Below are positions 36,160 through 41,458 of a stretch of 64,000 nt of DNA, one piece after another. The notes beneath the pieces were generated by a model. It did not search any database and had not been told where the DNA came from. It saw nothing but the letters and a program-made list of their open reading frames with translations. Every line of letters starts with the position of its first letter. The first letter of the stretch is position 1. The translations under genes were made by a program, and so were the position numbers. The stretch comes from Denitrobaculum tricleocarpae (GTDB lineage: Bacteria; Pseudomonadota; Alphaproteobacteria; Kiloniellales; Kiloniellaceae), in the NCBI RefSeq assembly GCF_007004665.1, contig NZ_ML660057.1, forward strand, positions 1-64,000, written 5' to 3'.

Positions 36160-36450
36160 TTAGTTGGTTTTAGCCGCGCAAGGATTGCACGGGTTCTTTG
36201 CAGCACAAGGGTTGCAAGGATTGCAGGGGTTCTTGGCGGCGCAAGGGTTGCAGGCCTTCTTAGCTGCACAAGGATTGCAAGGGTTACAAGCCTTCTTCGC
36301 GGCGCAGGGCGAACAGCCGGCGTAAGCGGAGCTTGGCAGTGCAGTTACGCCTGCAGCCATGCTGCCCAGACCAACGGCCAGTCCGAGCATGACAGGGATA
36401 ATGGTCGTGGAGGACAGAAGCCGTCCCTTGTGTGAAGTTTTGTTGTTCAT
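36160..36450 (-). CDS. Exported cysteine-rich NPC/CAAK-repeat protein (small form)
   Basis: A 96-residue protein. After a short polar start, residues 15-44 form an uncleaved-anchor or signal segment ending ALPSSAYA. Residues 46-93 are almost only repeats of NPC and CAAKK/CAAKN units with 12 cysteines. The leader closely resembles that of the P460 protein at 41 kb (TTIIPVMLGLAVGLG against [15 protein letters not shown]). The start at 36450 has AAGGAG upstream. No catalytic domain is present. Cysteine density suggests metal binding or disulfide cross-linking, which is inference only. Confidence 0.8.
   Translation of the reverse strand: MNNKTSHKGRLLSSTTIIPVMLGLAVGLGSMAAGVTALPSSAYAGCSPCAAKKACNPCNPCAAKKACNPCAAKNPCNPCNPCAAKNPCNPCAAKTN
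36163..36315. repeat. Coding repeat array (NPC/CAAK units), small gene
   Basis: On the plus strand the pattern is repeated GGGTTGCAAGGATTGCA-like blocks, 9-21 nt apart, the complement of Asn-Pro-Cys codons. It cross-hybridises with the longer array at 40494-40982 and could recombine with it. Confidence 0.75.
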
Positions 36451-36723
36451 CTCTACACTCCTTGTTGTTGCGAACCCTTGACTTAAAGGATCCGGGGTCA
36501 GCGGACTGCCTTCCCTTATTACACTGTGCAAATGGCTATTCTTGCGTTTCTTTCAGCCCTTCTGCACAGCGTCGTGAAACTATGTGATCAAGCCGGTGCG
36601 AATTTACCTCAAAGCGATGATTTCGTGGGTAAATCTGCGATCAAATAACAGTGATATACCCTTCAGGTAGGCGCAATTGAGGTAGTCTCACGGCTCACTC
36701 AAGAAAGTTACCGGAGATTAAGC
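36451..36723. other. Divergent promoter region between the small cysteine-repeat gene and the DUF302 gene
   Basis: The 273-nt gap serves two outward-facing genes. CTGTGCA at 36524-36530 and TGCACAG at 36563-36569 form an inverted pair that could be a regulator site or a leader hairpin. No defined promoter can be assigned. Confidence 0.35.
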
Positions 36724-37200
36724 ATGCGTTGGATCATTCCAATGACCCTTGCCTCACTGCTCTGTTTCATCGCGCCTTCAGACAGCTTGCTTGCCGAGCC
36801 CTACTCTCCTCACAGCGGCGTAAAACTTATCGAAACCACGATTCCCTTCGATAACTTCACCGAACGGCTGACCGGCGCGATCTCCAAGAATAAGATGGGT
36901 CTTGTGGCTCAGGCTTGTGCCAATTGTGGGGCGAAGTCGATTGGCGTGACGATTCCGGGCAACCGGGTCTTCATGATCTTCCGCCCGGACTTTGCGGTCC
37001 GTATGCTTGCCGCGAGCGAAGCCGCCGGCGTTGAAGCCCCGCTCAGGCTCTATGTCACGGAGCAATCCGACGGCACGGCCCGCTTGAGCTATCGCCTGCC
37101 CAGCCACGTTTTTGGCGCTTATGAGGTCGCGGATCTTGATAGACTGGGGGCCGAACTGGACGTCATTCTGGCGCAGATCGCCCAAGACGCTCTGCAATAG
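36724..37200 (+). CDS. DUF302 domain protein, exported
   Basis: A 158-residue protein with an N-terminal signal peptide (about 1-24, ending LLAEP). The mature region matches the DUF302 (TT1751-like) fold: KLIETTIPFDNFTERLTGAI, FMIFRPDFAVRMLAASEAAG, LRLYVTEQSDGTARLSY. DUF302 proteins are widespread, bind small ligands or metals in the few studied cases, and often neighbour sulfur or redox genes. A CANCG segment adds a possible thiol site. It is followed 30 nt later by a YeeE/YedE transporter. Confidence 0.8.
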   Translation: MRWIIPMTLASLLCFIAPSDSLLAEPYSPHSGVKLIETTIPFDNFTERLTGAISKNKMGLVAQACANCGAKSIGVTIPGNRVFMIFRPDFAVRMLAASEAAGVEAPLRLYVTEQSDGTARLSYRLPSHVFGAYEVADLDRLGAELDVILAQIAQDALQ

Positions 37201-37230
37201 CACGCCGCCACTACAGGATTTGCCACATCA

Positions 37231-38418
37231 ATGAGCGCTATCGCACAGCCTTCCGCGGAGTTACCGCGCGTTCCTAACCCGGTCCAGATCACCGCGCTCC
37301 TGCTGGCGATGACCGCCATCGTTCTGCTTGCGGCCTCGGTCCTCATGATCAGCTTAAAGCAGCTCCTGCTCTTTGGGATCGGCGTTGGGTTGGGCATATC
37401 GCTCTACCACGCCGCCTTCGGGTTTACCGGCGCATACCGCCGCGCGATGCTCGAGGGCGATATCTCAGGTGTCACCGCTCAACTGATTATGCTGGCCGTC
37501 GCCGTTCTACTGTTCGCGCCCATCCTGGCGCAGGGGGAAGCTTTCGGGCGGGGCGTCGGAGGCGCCGTCGCGCCGGTCAGCCTTTCCATGGCCCTCGGCG
37601 CGTTCCTCTTCGGGATCGGCATGCAGCTCGGCGGATCCTGTGCATCGGGCACTCTCTTTGCCGCCGGCGGCGGCAGCCTCCGCACTCTCCTGGTCCTGGT
37701 CTTCTTTTGCATCGGCGCTTTCTGGGGCAGCCTTGATCTTGCCTGGTGGTCGCAGCTGCCGGGCGTCGGATCGGTTTCCCTGAGCGAGCACCTTGGTTGG
37801 GAAATCGCCCTGCCGCTTCAACTCGGCGCGCTCGCGCTGATTTACGCGGTCATGCGTTTCTTCGGCGGAACTCAAAAACGGCCGCTCTGGGATATCGGCC
37901 ATTTCAGGTGGCAGACGCTTCTACGTGGTCCCTGGCCCCTGCTCCTATCCGCACTTCTGCTGGCGCTCTTCAATTGGCTGACTCTATTGGTCGCCGGGCA
38001 CCCCTGGTCCATCACCTGGGCCTTTTCACTCTGGGCGGCCAAGGCAGCCGTCTTCGCCGGCTGGGATCCTGCAACGAGTGGTTTCTGGTCGGGTGGTTTT
38101 CAGCAAGCGGCCCTGGAGCGCAGCGTCTTGCAGGATGTCACGTCCGTGATGAATTTCGGAATCATCCTGGGCGCCTTCCTGGCCGCGGCCCTTGCAGGCC
38201 GGCTCGTCAAACCGGCGGGAATTGCGTTCCGCTCACTCACTGCCGCCGTCCTGGGCGGCCTGATCATGGGTTATGGCGCGCGTCTCTCGTACGGCTGCAA
38301 CATCGGCGCTTTTTTCAGCGGCGTTGCCTCGACGAGCCTGCACGGCTGGGTCTGGATCGCCTGCGCTCTGCCGGGCAACTACATCGGCGTCCGGCTCAGG
38401 CCCTTTTTCAGGCTGTAA
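37231..38418 (+). CDS. YeeE/YedE family transporter (thiosulfate or sulfur-compound import)
   Basis: A 395-residue membrane protein with about ten helices in two related halves. The conserved cysteine loops of the family are visible: LGGSCASGTLFAAGGG in the first half and YGCNIGAFFSGVAS in the second. In TsuA these cysteines pass thiosulfate through the membrane. The ATG at 37231 directly follows the DUF302 gene, and co-transcription suggests that the exported DUF302 protein supports uptake of a sulfur compound. Confidence 0.9.
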   Translation: MSAIAQPSAELPRVPNPVQITALLLAMTAIVLLAASVLMISLKQLLLFGIGVGLGISLYHAAFGFTGAYRRAMLEGDISGVTAQLIMLAVAVLLFAPILAQGEAFGRGVGGAVAPVSLSMALGAFLFGIGMQLGGSCASGTLFAAGGGSLRTLLVLVFFCIGAFWGSLDLAWWSQLPGVGSVSLSEHLGWEIALPLQLGALALIYAVMRFFGGTQKRPLWDIGHFRWQTLLRGPWPLLLSALLLALFNWLTLLVAGHPWSITWAFSLWAAKAAVFAGWDPATSGFWSGGFQQAALERSVLQDVTSVMNFGIILGAFLAAALAGRLVKPAGIAFRSLTAAVLGGLIMGYGARLSYGCNIGAFFSGVASTSLHGWVWIACALPGNYIGVRLRPFFRL

Positions 38419-38431
38419 CAGGCCTCGTTCG

Positions 38432-39184
38432 TCAGCCCCAGGAACTGTTGAGAAAGAGGTTCTCCTTGGGGGCCTCGGATAGGGCCTTGTGAACGGCCTT
38501 GATCTGCTCGTCGACAGAGATCTTGACGCTCGATGTCACTTCCAGATTCCGGTCCTCGTACACGTCTTCGTTCGGATGACTGGCCTGCCACTTCTCGATT
38601 TCGGCATCGCGCTGGCGCAGCAACTCCTCGATCTGCGGACGGAACAGGCGAACGACGCCACTGATCCACTTGTTGGCCGCGAGGCAGGGGAAGGTGTGGT
38701 CGATCTCGAAGGCATCAATCATCTGGATGACGCTCTCCGCCGAATAGAAGGTCTCGCCCGTGACCCAGCGATTGGTCGTGAAAAGGGCAATCGGGAAACC
38801 CTGACGATCCATGGAAATCGCGATGATGTGGGCCAGGGCGTCTTCACCTAGAGGTCGCGTGCCCTCACCTTCATAGGGGGCGGGCCAGATTCCGGAGGGA
38901 ATGCCGCCGGACCGCAGGAAAGTGTGGAAGTGTCCGTTTTCCCCGTCGGTTCCGCGATGAGAATGATAGTAGTACTGACTGAAAGTCTCGGCGTCGTACA
39001 CGTCGCCGTTCGGATAGTGGTCCCACTCGTAAAACGTACCCTGGTTGGCCAGAACCTGACCGACCACATTGGCCGAGGTCTTGTTCAAGACCCGGTAGGC
39101 CTCGACAATCTCGCTGCCGGCCTTGGACATCGCCTGGAGTTCAGCCTTGCTGAGACCCGCCATCAAATTGCTTACAATCATCTT
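38432..39184 (-). CDS. Conserved protein of unknown function (DUF6969-like)
   Basis: A soluble protein of about 250 residues. A striking central block, YYYHSHRGTDGENGHFHTFL, has several histidines and resembles a metal site; HIIAISMDRQGFPIALFTTNRWVTGE follows. I think it belongs to the DUF6969 family, but no function is known. The start is uncertain: methionines at complement 39223 and 39184 (MIVSNLMAG) are both possible, and the latter is given. It is convergent with the YeeE/YedE gene. Confidence 0.6.
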   Translation of the reverse strand, partial: KMIVSNLMAGLSKAELQAMSKAGSEIVEAYRVLNKTSANVVGQVLANQGTFYEWDHYPNGDVYDAETFSQYYYHSHRGTDGENGHFHTFLRSGGIPSGIWPAPYEGEGTRPLGEDALAHIIAISMDRQGFPIALFTTNRWVTGETFYSAESVIQMIDAFEIDHTFPCLAANKWISGVVRLFRPQIEELLRQRDAEIEKWQASHPNEDVYEDRNLEVTSSVKISVDEQIKAVHKALSEAPKENLFLNSSWG

Positions 39185-39263
39185 ATCCCTCAATACCTCA
39201 GGGTTCGCCGTGCTTTGTTCCAAGCACCGGGCTTACCAGTCTTAATGCAGACGGAAGGGAGAG

Positions 39264-39758
39264 TCACTGACCGGCCTCTCCTTCTTGTGCCCGCCAAATC
39301 CAAGGCAGCGTAAACTGCCCATGCCACAACGCACGCCGCGCCTCCTGCGCACCTGCCATCGCCGTCTTATAACGCTGCGGCGCACCGTCGATCGCAACAG
39401 CCCAGCCAGTGTGGGTCATACCTTCAGCGAGATCGTACCCCGCCGCCCGACAGACACCAAGCGCGTTGCCGCCCCTGTCACCAGCCGCAAGTTCGCAGAC
39501 CACTGAGACACCGGCAGTCAGATCCATCAGCGCCGATTTGGCAATCAGACCGCAGTTGATCTCCTTCTTGGGCCACTTGCAGGTCTGTCCCAGCTCGGGT
39601 GCGTCGACACCTAGCAGATCGATCTTCCGGCCTGCGACTTCAAGCGAATCACCATCAATGATACGTGAAGCGCCGGTGATCGTCTCCGCCGATGCCGGGG
39701 CGCCGACGAGCGTAAACGCGGCAAGACCCAAGGATAGGGCAAGTTGTCTCATCTGCAT
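39264..39758 (-). CDS. Exported thermonuclease (SNase)-like protein, probably inactive
   Basis: A 164-residue protein with a signal peptide (ending ASAET). It shows the staphylococcal-nuclease fold pattern: IIDGDSLEV, KIDLLGVDAPELGQ, CGLIAKSAL, GVCRAAGYDLAEGM and a final GWA. The catalytic Glu of DAPE is kept. However, the two arginines expected in the family (I-R-L-x-G and D-R-x-G-R) read Asp in KIDLLG and Asn in DRGGNALG. Nuclease activity is therefore doubtful. The start at 39758 or 39752 cannot be separated. Confidence 0.78.
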   Translation of the reverse strand: MQMRQLALSLGLAAFTLVGAPASAETITGASRIIDGDSLEVAGRKIDLLGVDAPELGQTCKWPKKEINCGLIAKSALMDLTAGVSVVCELAAGDRGGNALGVCRAAGYDLAEGMTHTGWAVAIDGAPQRYKTAMAGAQEARRALWHGQFTLPWIWRAQEGEAGQ

Positions 39759-39965
39759 CAGCCCGGAAGAGCGGAAGTTAAAGACCCGGCCCGCAAGCCG
39801 ACTTCCAATGATTCCGCAATCTTTAATAGTACTCCCGTACACGGGGTTTCCAATCAAAACGAAAGCCTGGTCAAGCCCCGAAAAAATTCGGGATGTGCCG
39901 CCACCGAAGCAGCAACACATCCCGATCACGTCCTCAAAAGCGCTTTTCTCAACGCTTGAGCCAGC

Positions 39966-41138
39966 CTACTTCATCGATGTTCTGAGTTCTTCCGGCAGGA
40001 AGAACTGGAAGTCCTGATCATCGCCGACGGCGATATGGCAGTCCTTACAGAAGGCGACCGCACCCGAGCTTTGGCCTCCGGTTACGCCGATCACGCGTCC
40101 GTTCGGCATCATGAGGGTATAGCGCCAATCGCCGCCATCCGCGTCGAAACCGGCCGCCATCTTCTCCATCAGGAACAGTGGCCCTGGTGCTACTCTGCCA
40201 GCGCCGGAGACGGTAAAGCTGTCTTTGGCCAGGATCGACCCGACGGGCATGGTGCCGCCGTCCTCGAACTTGCTGTACTCCGACTTGGCCACGTCGTTGG
40301 AATAGTTGTTGACCAGGCGGCCGCCATGGGTGTCCGAGGTATAGGAAATCTTCGAGAAACGGGGCCAGTCCTTGTAGGCCACCGCGCTGGGATTGCCCGA
40401 CTTGGCGTAGCCGGCAACCATCTCGTCAATAATGCAGTCATAAACCCGCATCATTTCGGAGTCCGTCAACTCCGCCGAGCCCCCGGCTGCCGCACAGGGA
40501 TTGCACGGATTGCAAGGGTTACAGGGATTGCAGGGGTTTGCTGCTGCGCAAGGATTGGCCGCTGCACAAGGGTTGCAGGGATTCGCCGCTGCGCAGGGAT
40601 TGCAGGGGTTCTTGGCTGCACAGGGGTTGCAGGGATTGCAGGGATTTTTCGCCGCGCAAGGGTTCTTGGCAGCGCAGGGATTACACGGATTACAGGCCTT
40701 CGCCGCGCAAGGATTGCACGGGTTGCATGCTTTCTTTGCGGCGCAGGGGTTTGCCGCACAGGGATTCGCCGATGCCAGACGCGGAACGATGCAGCGCGCG
40801 GACACGCCGCCGGCTGCAGCACCTGCACAAGGGTTGCAGGGGTTGCAAGCGTTTGCCGCAGCACAGGGATTGCACGGATTACAGGGGTTCTTCGCCGCAC
40901 AGGGATTGCAAGGGTTGCAGGGATTCTTCGCCGCGCAAGGATTGGCCGCTGCGCAAGGGTTGCAAGGGTTTGCCGCGGCGCATGAAGCAACAGCGTGACC
41001 GGGCAACGCCGTGATGCTGACAGCAACTGCGCCGACGCCGACCGCCAGCCCCAGGACAAGCGGGATCGCCGTCGTGGTGGTCAGCAGATTGTCTTTTAGT
41101 CCGGTGATAATTTTCTCTCGAGATAGTCTGTCGCCCAT
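39966..41138 (-). CDS. Cytochrome P460 domain protein with long cysteine-rich NPC repeat region
   Basis: A 390-residue exported protein. Residues about 19-52 are a leader like that of the 96-residue protein at 36 kb. Residues 53-about 215 are NPC, CAAK and CAAA repeats with roughly 36 cysteines, interrupted once by a non-repeat insert ([15 protein letters not shown]). Residues about 220-390 are a cytochrome P460-like domain ([38 protein letters not shown]) with a single haem motif CKDCH at 363-367. P460 proteins oxidise hydroxylamine or bind NO. The start at 41138 follows AGGGAGG; a GTG two codons upstream is less likely. Confidence 0.85.
40494..40982. repeat. Coding repeat array (NPC/CAAK/CAAA units), P460 gene
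   Basis: About 490 nt of direct repeats in 9-, 15- and 21-nt steps encoding Asn-Pro-Cys and Cys-Ala-Ala units. The array is broken by a unique segment around 40765-40815. Such arrays change length by slippage and are a likely place for assembly error. Confidence 0.8.
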
Positions 41139-41458
41139 CTCCACCTCCCTAATTTGTTTTTTTGCTCGTTCCCCCCGGGGGAAAAGGACCGGGCCGAAAC
41201 CCGGTCCTCCCGCGAGATCCTCGAGGGATGAGGACTTTGCTTTAGACCCAACTCCCCGAGTGCTGGAAAGGAGCTGGGCCGCTATTCATCGGTTTCAGTC
41301 TCTCGATCAAACCCGGCAAACAGCATATTCAACAATAGGGACTTTTATTCACAATGATGCAGGGTTACACAGACTTGTGAACGCACGTGATAAACTGTGC
41401 TTTCGTCTCACCAATAGATAATTCGCGCAATTCTTGACTGACTTTTTGTTAGGGTTTT
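41139..41458. other. Divergent region between P460 gene and antiporter gene
   Basis: A 320-nt gap with the leader hairpin near the P460 gene and AT-richer sequence at 41320-41458. TTGACT occurs close to the antiporter start but too near to serve as its -35. No further gene was found. Confidence 0.4.
41183..41207 (-). terminator. Leader hairpin upstream of the P460 gene
   Basis: On the minus strand an 8-bp stem GGACCGGG / CCCGGTCC with a 6-nt loop is followed by TTTT and then a CCCCCGGGGG palindrome. It lies 45-70 nt before the start codon, so it would be in the leader RNA. It may act as an attenuator or protect the 5' end. Confidence 0.4.

Follow-up and report, generated by a model that had tools for sequence, protein, structure and literature searches.

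We analyzed the first 64,000 nucleotides of contig NZ_ML660057.1 of Denitrobaculum tricleocarpae (positions 1-64,000, hereafter the window, to which coordinates refer unless another contig or locus is named), in which a preliminary reading of the DNA had pointed to two minus-strand genes encoding exported cysteine-repeat proteins, the larger one carrying a cytochrome P460-like domain. Both genes are present (Table 1). The smaller protein has 12 cysteines and the larger, which we call the fusion, has 39, 36 of them in its repeat region, so that the 12 and about 36 of the original prediction hold. The membrane leaders, described there as similar, share 53% identity across 43 residues (E=1.4e-6), and the single CKDCH motif lies in a domain for which a P460/c'-beta fold is predicted, as had been proposed. 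The intervening genes were also correctly noted: they encode a DUF302 protein, a YeeE/YedE-like transporter, a DUF6969 protein (then a His-rich unknown) and an SNase-fold protein (then a nuclease homologue). Since the DUF302 and YeeE genes lie on the strand opposite to the repeat genes, they do not form one operon with them. Export-like leaders were judged by eye from the sequence.

Table 1. Features of the cysteine-repeat locus of D. tricleocarpae (window positions; ORF, open reading frame)
Feature	Position	Strand	Remarks
Cys-repeat / P460 fusion protein	39966..41138	-	Export-like leader; ATG start 41138; ORF 39966-41144
Cys-repeat region of the fusion	40494..40982	-	36 Cys, C-x2-C / C-x5-C
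Cytochrome P460 / c'-beta-fold domain of the fusion	39969..40475	-	Extra N-terminal helix
Lys codon, cross-link position	40224..40226	-	P460 domain
Phe codon, probable distal-carboxylate position	40173..40175	-	P460 domain
CKDCH haem-c attachment motif	40035..40049	-	Single copy in the fusion
Small Cys-repeat protein	36160..36450	-	96 aa, 12 Cys; export-like leader; likely ATG 36450; ORF 36160-36531
DUF6969 protein (PF22308)	38432..39223	-	No signal peptide by eye; invariant His/Glu; start uncertain
SNase-fold protein	39264..39929	-	Export-like leader; start uncertain
YeeE/YedE-like transporter (PF04143)	37231..38418	+	Pfam match
DUF302 protein (PF03625)	36724..37200	+	Export-like leader; Pfam match

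Relatives were collected in one scan of genome contigs, which yielded 108 of them; the best 80 were kept, giving 75 loci whose neighbouring genes were labelled by profiles. For the counts of spacing, modules and elements 11 duplicate loci were left out, and for the spacing statistics identical sequences as well. The repeat is a ladder of C-x2-C and C-x5-C steps made up of CNPC and CAAKNPC units. Among 147 distinct repeat proteins of relatives, 55.5% of the gaps between successive cysteines measure 3 residues (C-x2-C) and 22.7% measure 6 (C-x5-C), the commonest C-x2-C linker being NP (1745 occurrences), for which GA, SP and GP substitute. In the D. tricleocarpae genome the NPCNPC units are written in many synonymous codons, and in a relative (locus L209) CGAC replaces CNPC while the cysteine spacing is kept; the repeats are therefore not an artefact of the DNA, and it is the protein that has been conserved. 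A control with the reversed pattern gave zero matches in the same genome. The number of cysteines per repeat protein ranges from 7 to 59 and copy number differs strongly among close relatives, the small repeat proteins being about 90-140 aa long. Two haem-free repeat proteins which were scanned, the small one of the window among them, matched 0 Pfam and 0 NCBIfam families, and thus no metallothionein or named Cys-repeat family model. Many of the hosts of the repeat-haem proteins are marine.

Some further repeat proteins and elements were noticed. A non-repeat CIVPRL/CVVPRL-like element separates two repeat blocks of the fusion (window 40776-40793), and such an element is found in 24 of 70 P460 fusions. 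A third repeat gene of the D. tricleocarpae genome (G000:C1:1030386-1030778; L156:8387-8779) encodes a lipoprotein-like leader, LLSACAS, and adjoins a PF00459 gene, presumably CysQ-like, in 4/4 genomes of the genus (one was scanned with Pfam; the family is the same in all). The same genome encodes an 819-aa lipoprotein-like protein with 24 cysteines and a CxxCH (G000:C6:207754-208092; L247:7362-9821), which has a P460 match, below the threshold, on that contig. In other Kiloniellaceae a different small repeat gene, with a leader that is mostly MLKK, directly precedes a sensor histidine-kinase gene of the same orientation at 12 of 15 loci (L121, L126, L135, L160-L163, L165, L166 and L168-L170; one kinase was Pfam-scanned). 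Internal repeats flagged in L078 were dismissed, as the flag came from a wrong start.

The haem domain of the fusion scores close to the Pfam cut-off of 27 bits for PF16694 (26.8 bits for the ORF and 29.4 for the whole open frame); in relatives the scores reach 28.7 and 37.3 bits for repeat fusions (L072 and L064) and 45.3 bits for a repeat-free paralogue (L082). Its predicted structure is a beta-rich P460/c'-beta fold with the CxxCH in place, and on this modelled fold and the motif we assign it to the P460/c'-beta superfamily. Lys92 is invariant in 26/26 rows of one alignment and 30/30 of a second, and nearly so in another (where one repeat-free paralogue of L242 has Arg); it aligns with Lys70 of 2je2, a Met of 7s5o and a Phe of 7ead, and this alignment of the cross-link position agrees with Table 2 of PMC11928373. 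Phe109, likewise invariant (26/26 and 30/30), occupies the site that is Gly82 in McCP-beta/TtCP-beta; against the two Nitrosomonas proteins the alignment is ambiguous there. As far as the alignment tells, the domain appears to be devoid of the distal carboxylate needed for hydroxylamine oxidation. Where the module is of the P460 form, its haem is predicted to be cross-linked to Lys in a non-polar distal pocket, and to act as a ligand or electron centre and not as a hydroxylamine oxidase. Compared with the known P460/c'-beta proteins the fusion has in addition a long N-terminal Cys-repeat region and an extra N-terminal helix, an invariant Phe at what is probably the distal-carboxylate site, and gene company of its own. 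At four loci of one sister genus (L144, L146, L147 and L148) repeat-free P460 paralogues flank the fusion on both sides within a few kb; at L144 there are Sel1 and MscS-type genes nearby as well.

The haem attached to the repeats is not always P460. Most relatives that we found have the P460 fold, but those of gammaproteobacteria, SAR324 and some Rhodospirillaceae have a SoxA/TsdA-type domain next to the repeats. At nine fusion loci without a P460 label the haem was counted as SoxA-type, and all 5 of these that were scanned (L116-L119 and L124) were confirmed by Pfam, matching PF21342 with 28.6 to 46.1 bits (cut-off 27). This domain contains a single CxxCH, and a Cys-Met...Pro-Met segment is invariant in it. 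The Cys of that segment, Cys73, is the same in 8/8 SoxA-type rows and aligns with the Cys after MINA in SoxA 1h31, which we take to be the axial haem ligand of that structure. The L080 locus, with a P460 fusion, and the L124 locus, SoxA-type by Pfam, have identical gene order and orientation: YeeE, a cupredoxin-like protein (Cupl8), a protein of the formylglycine-generating enzyme (FGE) fold on the opposite strand, the fusion, the small repeat gene and DUF6969. In L242, moreover, a repeat block is located inside the P460 fold. Because the haem is swapped within one gene setting and a repeat block can sit within the P460 domain, the repeat block and the haem are separable modules which have been joined repeatedly or exchanged. 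The swap suggests that two unrelated haem folds perform one job for the polythiol. At the C terminus of one SoxA-type repeat protein (L116:7485-9080) a hydrophobic stretch precedes RRRNK, which looks like a membrane anchor.

Neighbours were counted within seven genes of the fusion at 62 loci, that of the window among them; some of the contigs are short, and the simple gene caller often set starts too long and missed some genes, e.g. DUF6969 in L207 and L222. DUF6969 was found near 34 of the 62 fusions, an FGE/SUMF1-fold subfamily and the haem-free small repeat gene near 25 each, YeeE/YedE near 14, Cupl8 near 10, DUF302 near 9, SNase near 8 and a plastocyanin-type protein near 3. The original prediction had proposed to test whether the small repeat gene, the P460 fusion, DUF302 and YeeE/YedE recur together. 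The small repeat gene, YeeE and DUF302 do recur in part, but DUF6969 and the FGE-fold protein are commoner company than either YeeE or DUF302. According to the gene calls the FGE-fold gene abuts or overlaps DUF6969 in L073, L087, L117 and L132. The D. tricleocarpae genome has its FGE-fold gene on the contig of the window, at position 90670 of that contig, and two cupredoxin-like genes elsewhere. A search for plasmid carriage gave zero matches at E<=1e-5.

A second sample, independent of likeness to the window, consisted of 289 alphaproteobacterial genomes drawn evenly from the class. DUF6969 was present in 62 of them and a codon pattern for NPCNPC in 31, with at least two matches in 22. In 20 of these 22 genomes we also found DUF6969, against 42 of the 267 others (p=4e-13); when a single match sufficed the figures were 22/31 against 40/258 (p=3e-10). 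In at least 15 of the 20 genomes DUF6969 and an NPCNPC gene lie within 3 kb of each other. The pattern misses some repeats: among 20 DUF6969 loci from NPCNPC-negative genomes nine carry a repeat gene (L204, L205, L206, L208, L209, L211, L213, L214 and L222) and L210 has a short one. For the FGE-fold subfamily we scored the 8 best candidates of each genome and chose a cut-off of E<=1e-70, at which 20/289 genomes have it; 18 of these have DUF6969 (p=1.4e-11), close beside it in 17. A Cys-repeat gene is found in 19 of the 20, namely in 12 where NPCNPC matches twice or more, in G038 with a single match only, and in six by reading of the locus (L205, L206, L208, L209, L211 and L222).

As to the partner proteins themselves, a fold search with DUF6969 returned no convincing solved counterpart, which does not establish a new fold; the family has an invariant set of His and Glu residues. 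The FGE-fold protein of L133 matches PF03781 with 118.9 bits (cut-off 23.3) and in a PDB profile search ToxD and others (4.9e-37); as regards the copper-binding Cys pair of FGE, its family has an invariant C-G-x-C near the C terminus, and the five structure alignments compared do not include a bona fide FGE. Cupl8 scores 13.3 of 27 bits for cupredoxin and has no invariant His, one being nearly invariant; its PDB profile gave no meaningful match. The YeeE-like protein of the window matches PF04143 across the full profile length and shares this family with the TsuA thiosulfate transporter and with YedE/FdhT, but it stays below all NCBIfam cut-offs (110.9 of 350 bits for YedE/FdhT; 58.1 of 400 and 35.4 of 645 bits for TsuA). 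Small mono-haem cytochromes c of about 125-165 aa were seen near DUF6969 in L205, L206, L219, L221, L226, L234 and others (PF00034 in L234, the sole one scanned); an electron acceptor is a possible role for them.

We tentatively favour, from the sequences, an exported polythiol scaffold with an exchangeable single-haem module and a sulfur-based cargo. The repeats would form a flexible periplasmic polythiol whose dense C-x2-C array would take up a cargo that reacts with thiols; sulfane sulfur, thiosulfate and sulfide are the likeliest candidates. As its one-electron redox partner, the haem fused to it would oxidize the loaded thiols or pass their electrons on to a soluble cytochrome. Sulfur would cross the membrane through YeeE/YedE, and maturation or servicing of the cysteines would fall to the FGE-fold protein and DUF6969. 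We prefer sulfur because the SoxA-type module belongs to a family that acts via a Cys S-thiosulfonate (PMC4423706) and because YeeE/YedE, DUF302 and the CysQ-like protein are among the neighbours. A comparable known arrangement is that of SoxA/TsdA with SoxYZ: there too a carrier thiol works beside the haem, and the alternative haem module of the relatives is of SoxA/TsdA type and has Cys as the residue at the ligand position; unlike it, the present proteins have one CxxCH, and their thiols are fused to the haem and multiplied into repeats. With respect to the original prediction, which had proposed a cysteine scaffold serving as metal store or redox buffer together with a haem protein handling nitric oxide (NO), hydroxylamine or sulfur species, the observation is confirmed and the interpretation is partly supported, its outline being right. 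The coupling of repeat and haem recurs across alphaproteobacteria, and the sulfur side is strengthened by the SoxA/TsdA-type relatives, whereas hydroxylamine is probably wrong as the distal carboxylate is apparently missing. The most telling partners, i.e. the recurring DUF6969, the FGE-fold protein and the SoxA-type haem, are beyond what that first reading could see.

Several points weigh against this reading or against a tight system. P460 is known for the chemistry of NO and hydroxylamine and not for that of sulfur, and the roles given to the FGE-fold protein and DUF6969 are guesses. Among the 62 fusions, 28 have no DUF6969, 37 no FGE-fold protein, 48 no YeeE and 53 no DUF302 nearby, partly owing to short contigs, and the frequencies lean toward P460 relatives because the loci were picked by likeness to the window protein. 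None of these four partners is near any of 9/9 sister-genus fusion loci (L139, L140 and L144-L150) or near several Sneathiella fusions. Repeat loci without a haem fusion have no partner at all in 23 of 28 cases, or 20 of 25 after removal of three double fetches, some contigs again being short. A lack of conserved company in relatives, or repeat genes at random loci without P460 or sulfur genes, had been named beforehand as what would refute the proposal; by that measure it holds in part: recurring partners were found, and these sister-genus and haem-free loci stand against them. Conversely, DUF6969 occurs without a nearby Cys-repeat gene at 10 of the 20 loci from NPCNPC-negative genomes, and genome G062 has the FGE subfamily with neither DUF6969 nor a Cys-repeat gene within 16 kb. 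In the sister genus g4 P460-only matches without repeats are found in 8/9 genomes, one of which has an extra marginal repeat-region match with two stops; the ninth genome, which is incomplete, has no match.

The explanation that survives best beside the sulfur-based one is a store for Cu(I) or another soft metal, in which the CxxC arrays would be a periplasmic metallothionein-like sponge and electrons or metal would travel by way of the haem domain and the cupredoxin-like protein. We hold it to be possible, if rather unlikely. The geometry of the CxxC arrays and the cupredoxin-like and plastocyanin-type neighbours (10 and 3 of the 62 loci) suit copper equally well, the classical FGE enzymes use copper, and the invariant His and Glu of DUF6969 would fit as well. 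Copper binding is nearly as good a reading as sulfur. A full copper site is, however, not evident in Cupl8 with its sub-cut-off score and no invariant His, no copper transporter was seen among the annotated neighbour families (most families are unannotated, and no search aimed at one was made), and copper leaves the SoxA-type haem and YeeE unexplained.

It is conceivable, although doubtful, that DUF6969 and the FGE-fold protein, perhaps translationally coupled, jointly convert the CNPC cysteines and so yield a modified exported polythiol of a new class. The product might be formylglycine, which could bond the repeat lysines, or another derivative, and the whole would be a scaffold for sulfur or metal resembling the ribosomally synthesized and post-translationally modified peptides (RiPPs), wired to a P460 or SoxA-type haem; as one joint proposal these parts share the same doubt. 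Bufferins are MNIO-modified, copper-chelating RiPPs. The present loci resemble theirs in that a small exported Cys-bearing peptide stands beside putative modifying enzymes (PMC12452194), but FGE-fold and DUF6969 proteins take the place of MNIO. A bufferin locus was rejected for the window, as the two MNIO genes (PF05114) of the D. tricleocarpae genome are on contigs C10 and C14 only.

Slightly less probable still is a structural scaffold or surface layer cross-linked by disulfides, the haem oxidizing the thiols and so driving cross-linking. It has an analogue in CdeC of the Clostridioides difficile exosporium, with a 6-NPC repeat, 37 cysteines and redox-dependent self-assembly (PMC7677010), and the variable length, with 7 to 59 cysteines per protein, would befit a polymer. 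Yet CdeC is a spore coat protein in another setting and the likeness lies in the repeat, not in an established homology; the recurrent transport and enzyme genes, the small size of many repeat proteins and the SoxA-type haem with Cys at its ligand position also argue against such a layer. We give about as little credence, or a shade less, to a redox or NO sensor in which NO or sulfide would bind to the haem while the thiol array informs signalling proteins of the redox state: the pocket of the P460 domain is similar to the non-polar halfway type of PMC11928373, and the repeat gene of another kind upstream of a histidine kinase in other Kiloniellaceae would be in keeping with it, but that kinase family is near just 6 of the 62 fusion loci, at 2 on the same strand, and up to 59 cysteines are far beyond the needs of a sensor. 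That the repeats are a low-complexity expansion which has no function is very improbable, for despite the strong copy-number variation among close relatives it is contradicted by cross-family conservation, by synonymous codon variety, by spacing kept when NP becomes GA and by the recurring partners.

Among the open-access papers of PMC that our searches listed we found no description of the repeat-haem gene set and nothing on DUF6969/PF22308; the repeat string led to no paper on such proteins by title or abstract, CdeC was the relevant case among NPC repeats, and 'cytochrome P460' was in none of the matches listed when combined with Cys-rich or copper or with the host genera. The system brings together four orphan items, namely a repeat that no Pfam or NCBIfam model covers, the DUF6969 family, a subfamily of the FGE fold and a branch of P460 not expected to oxidize hydroxylamine. 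It spans many alphaproteobacteria, and gammaproteobacteria and SAR324 hold relatives of it. Should the cysteines indeed be modified by DUF6969 and the FGE-fold protein, this would be a second route, unrelated to MNIO and bufferins, to exported cysteine-based ligands. The finding matters for the question of how sulfur or copper is dealt with beyond the bacterial cytoplasm, and for the purpose of P460 proteins in organisms other than nitrifiers.

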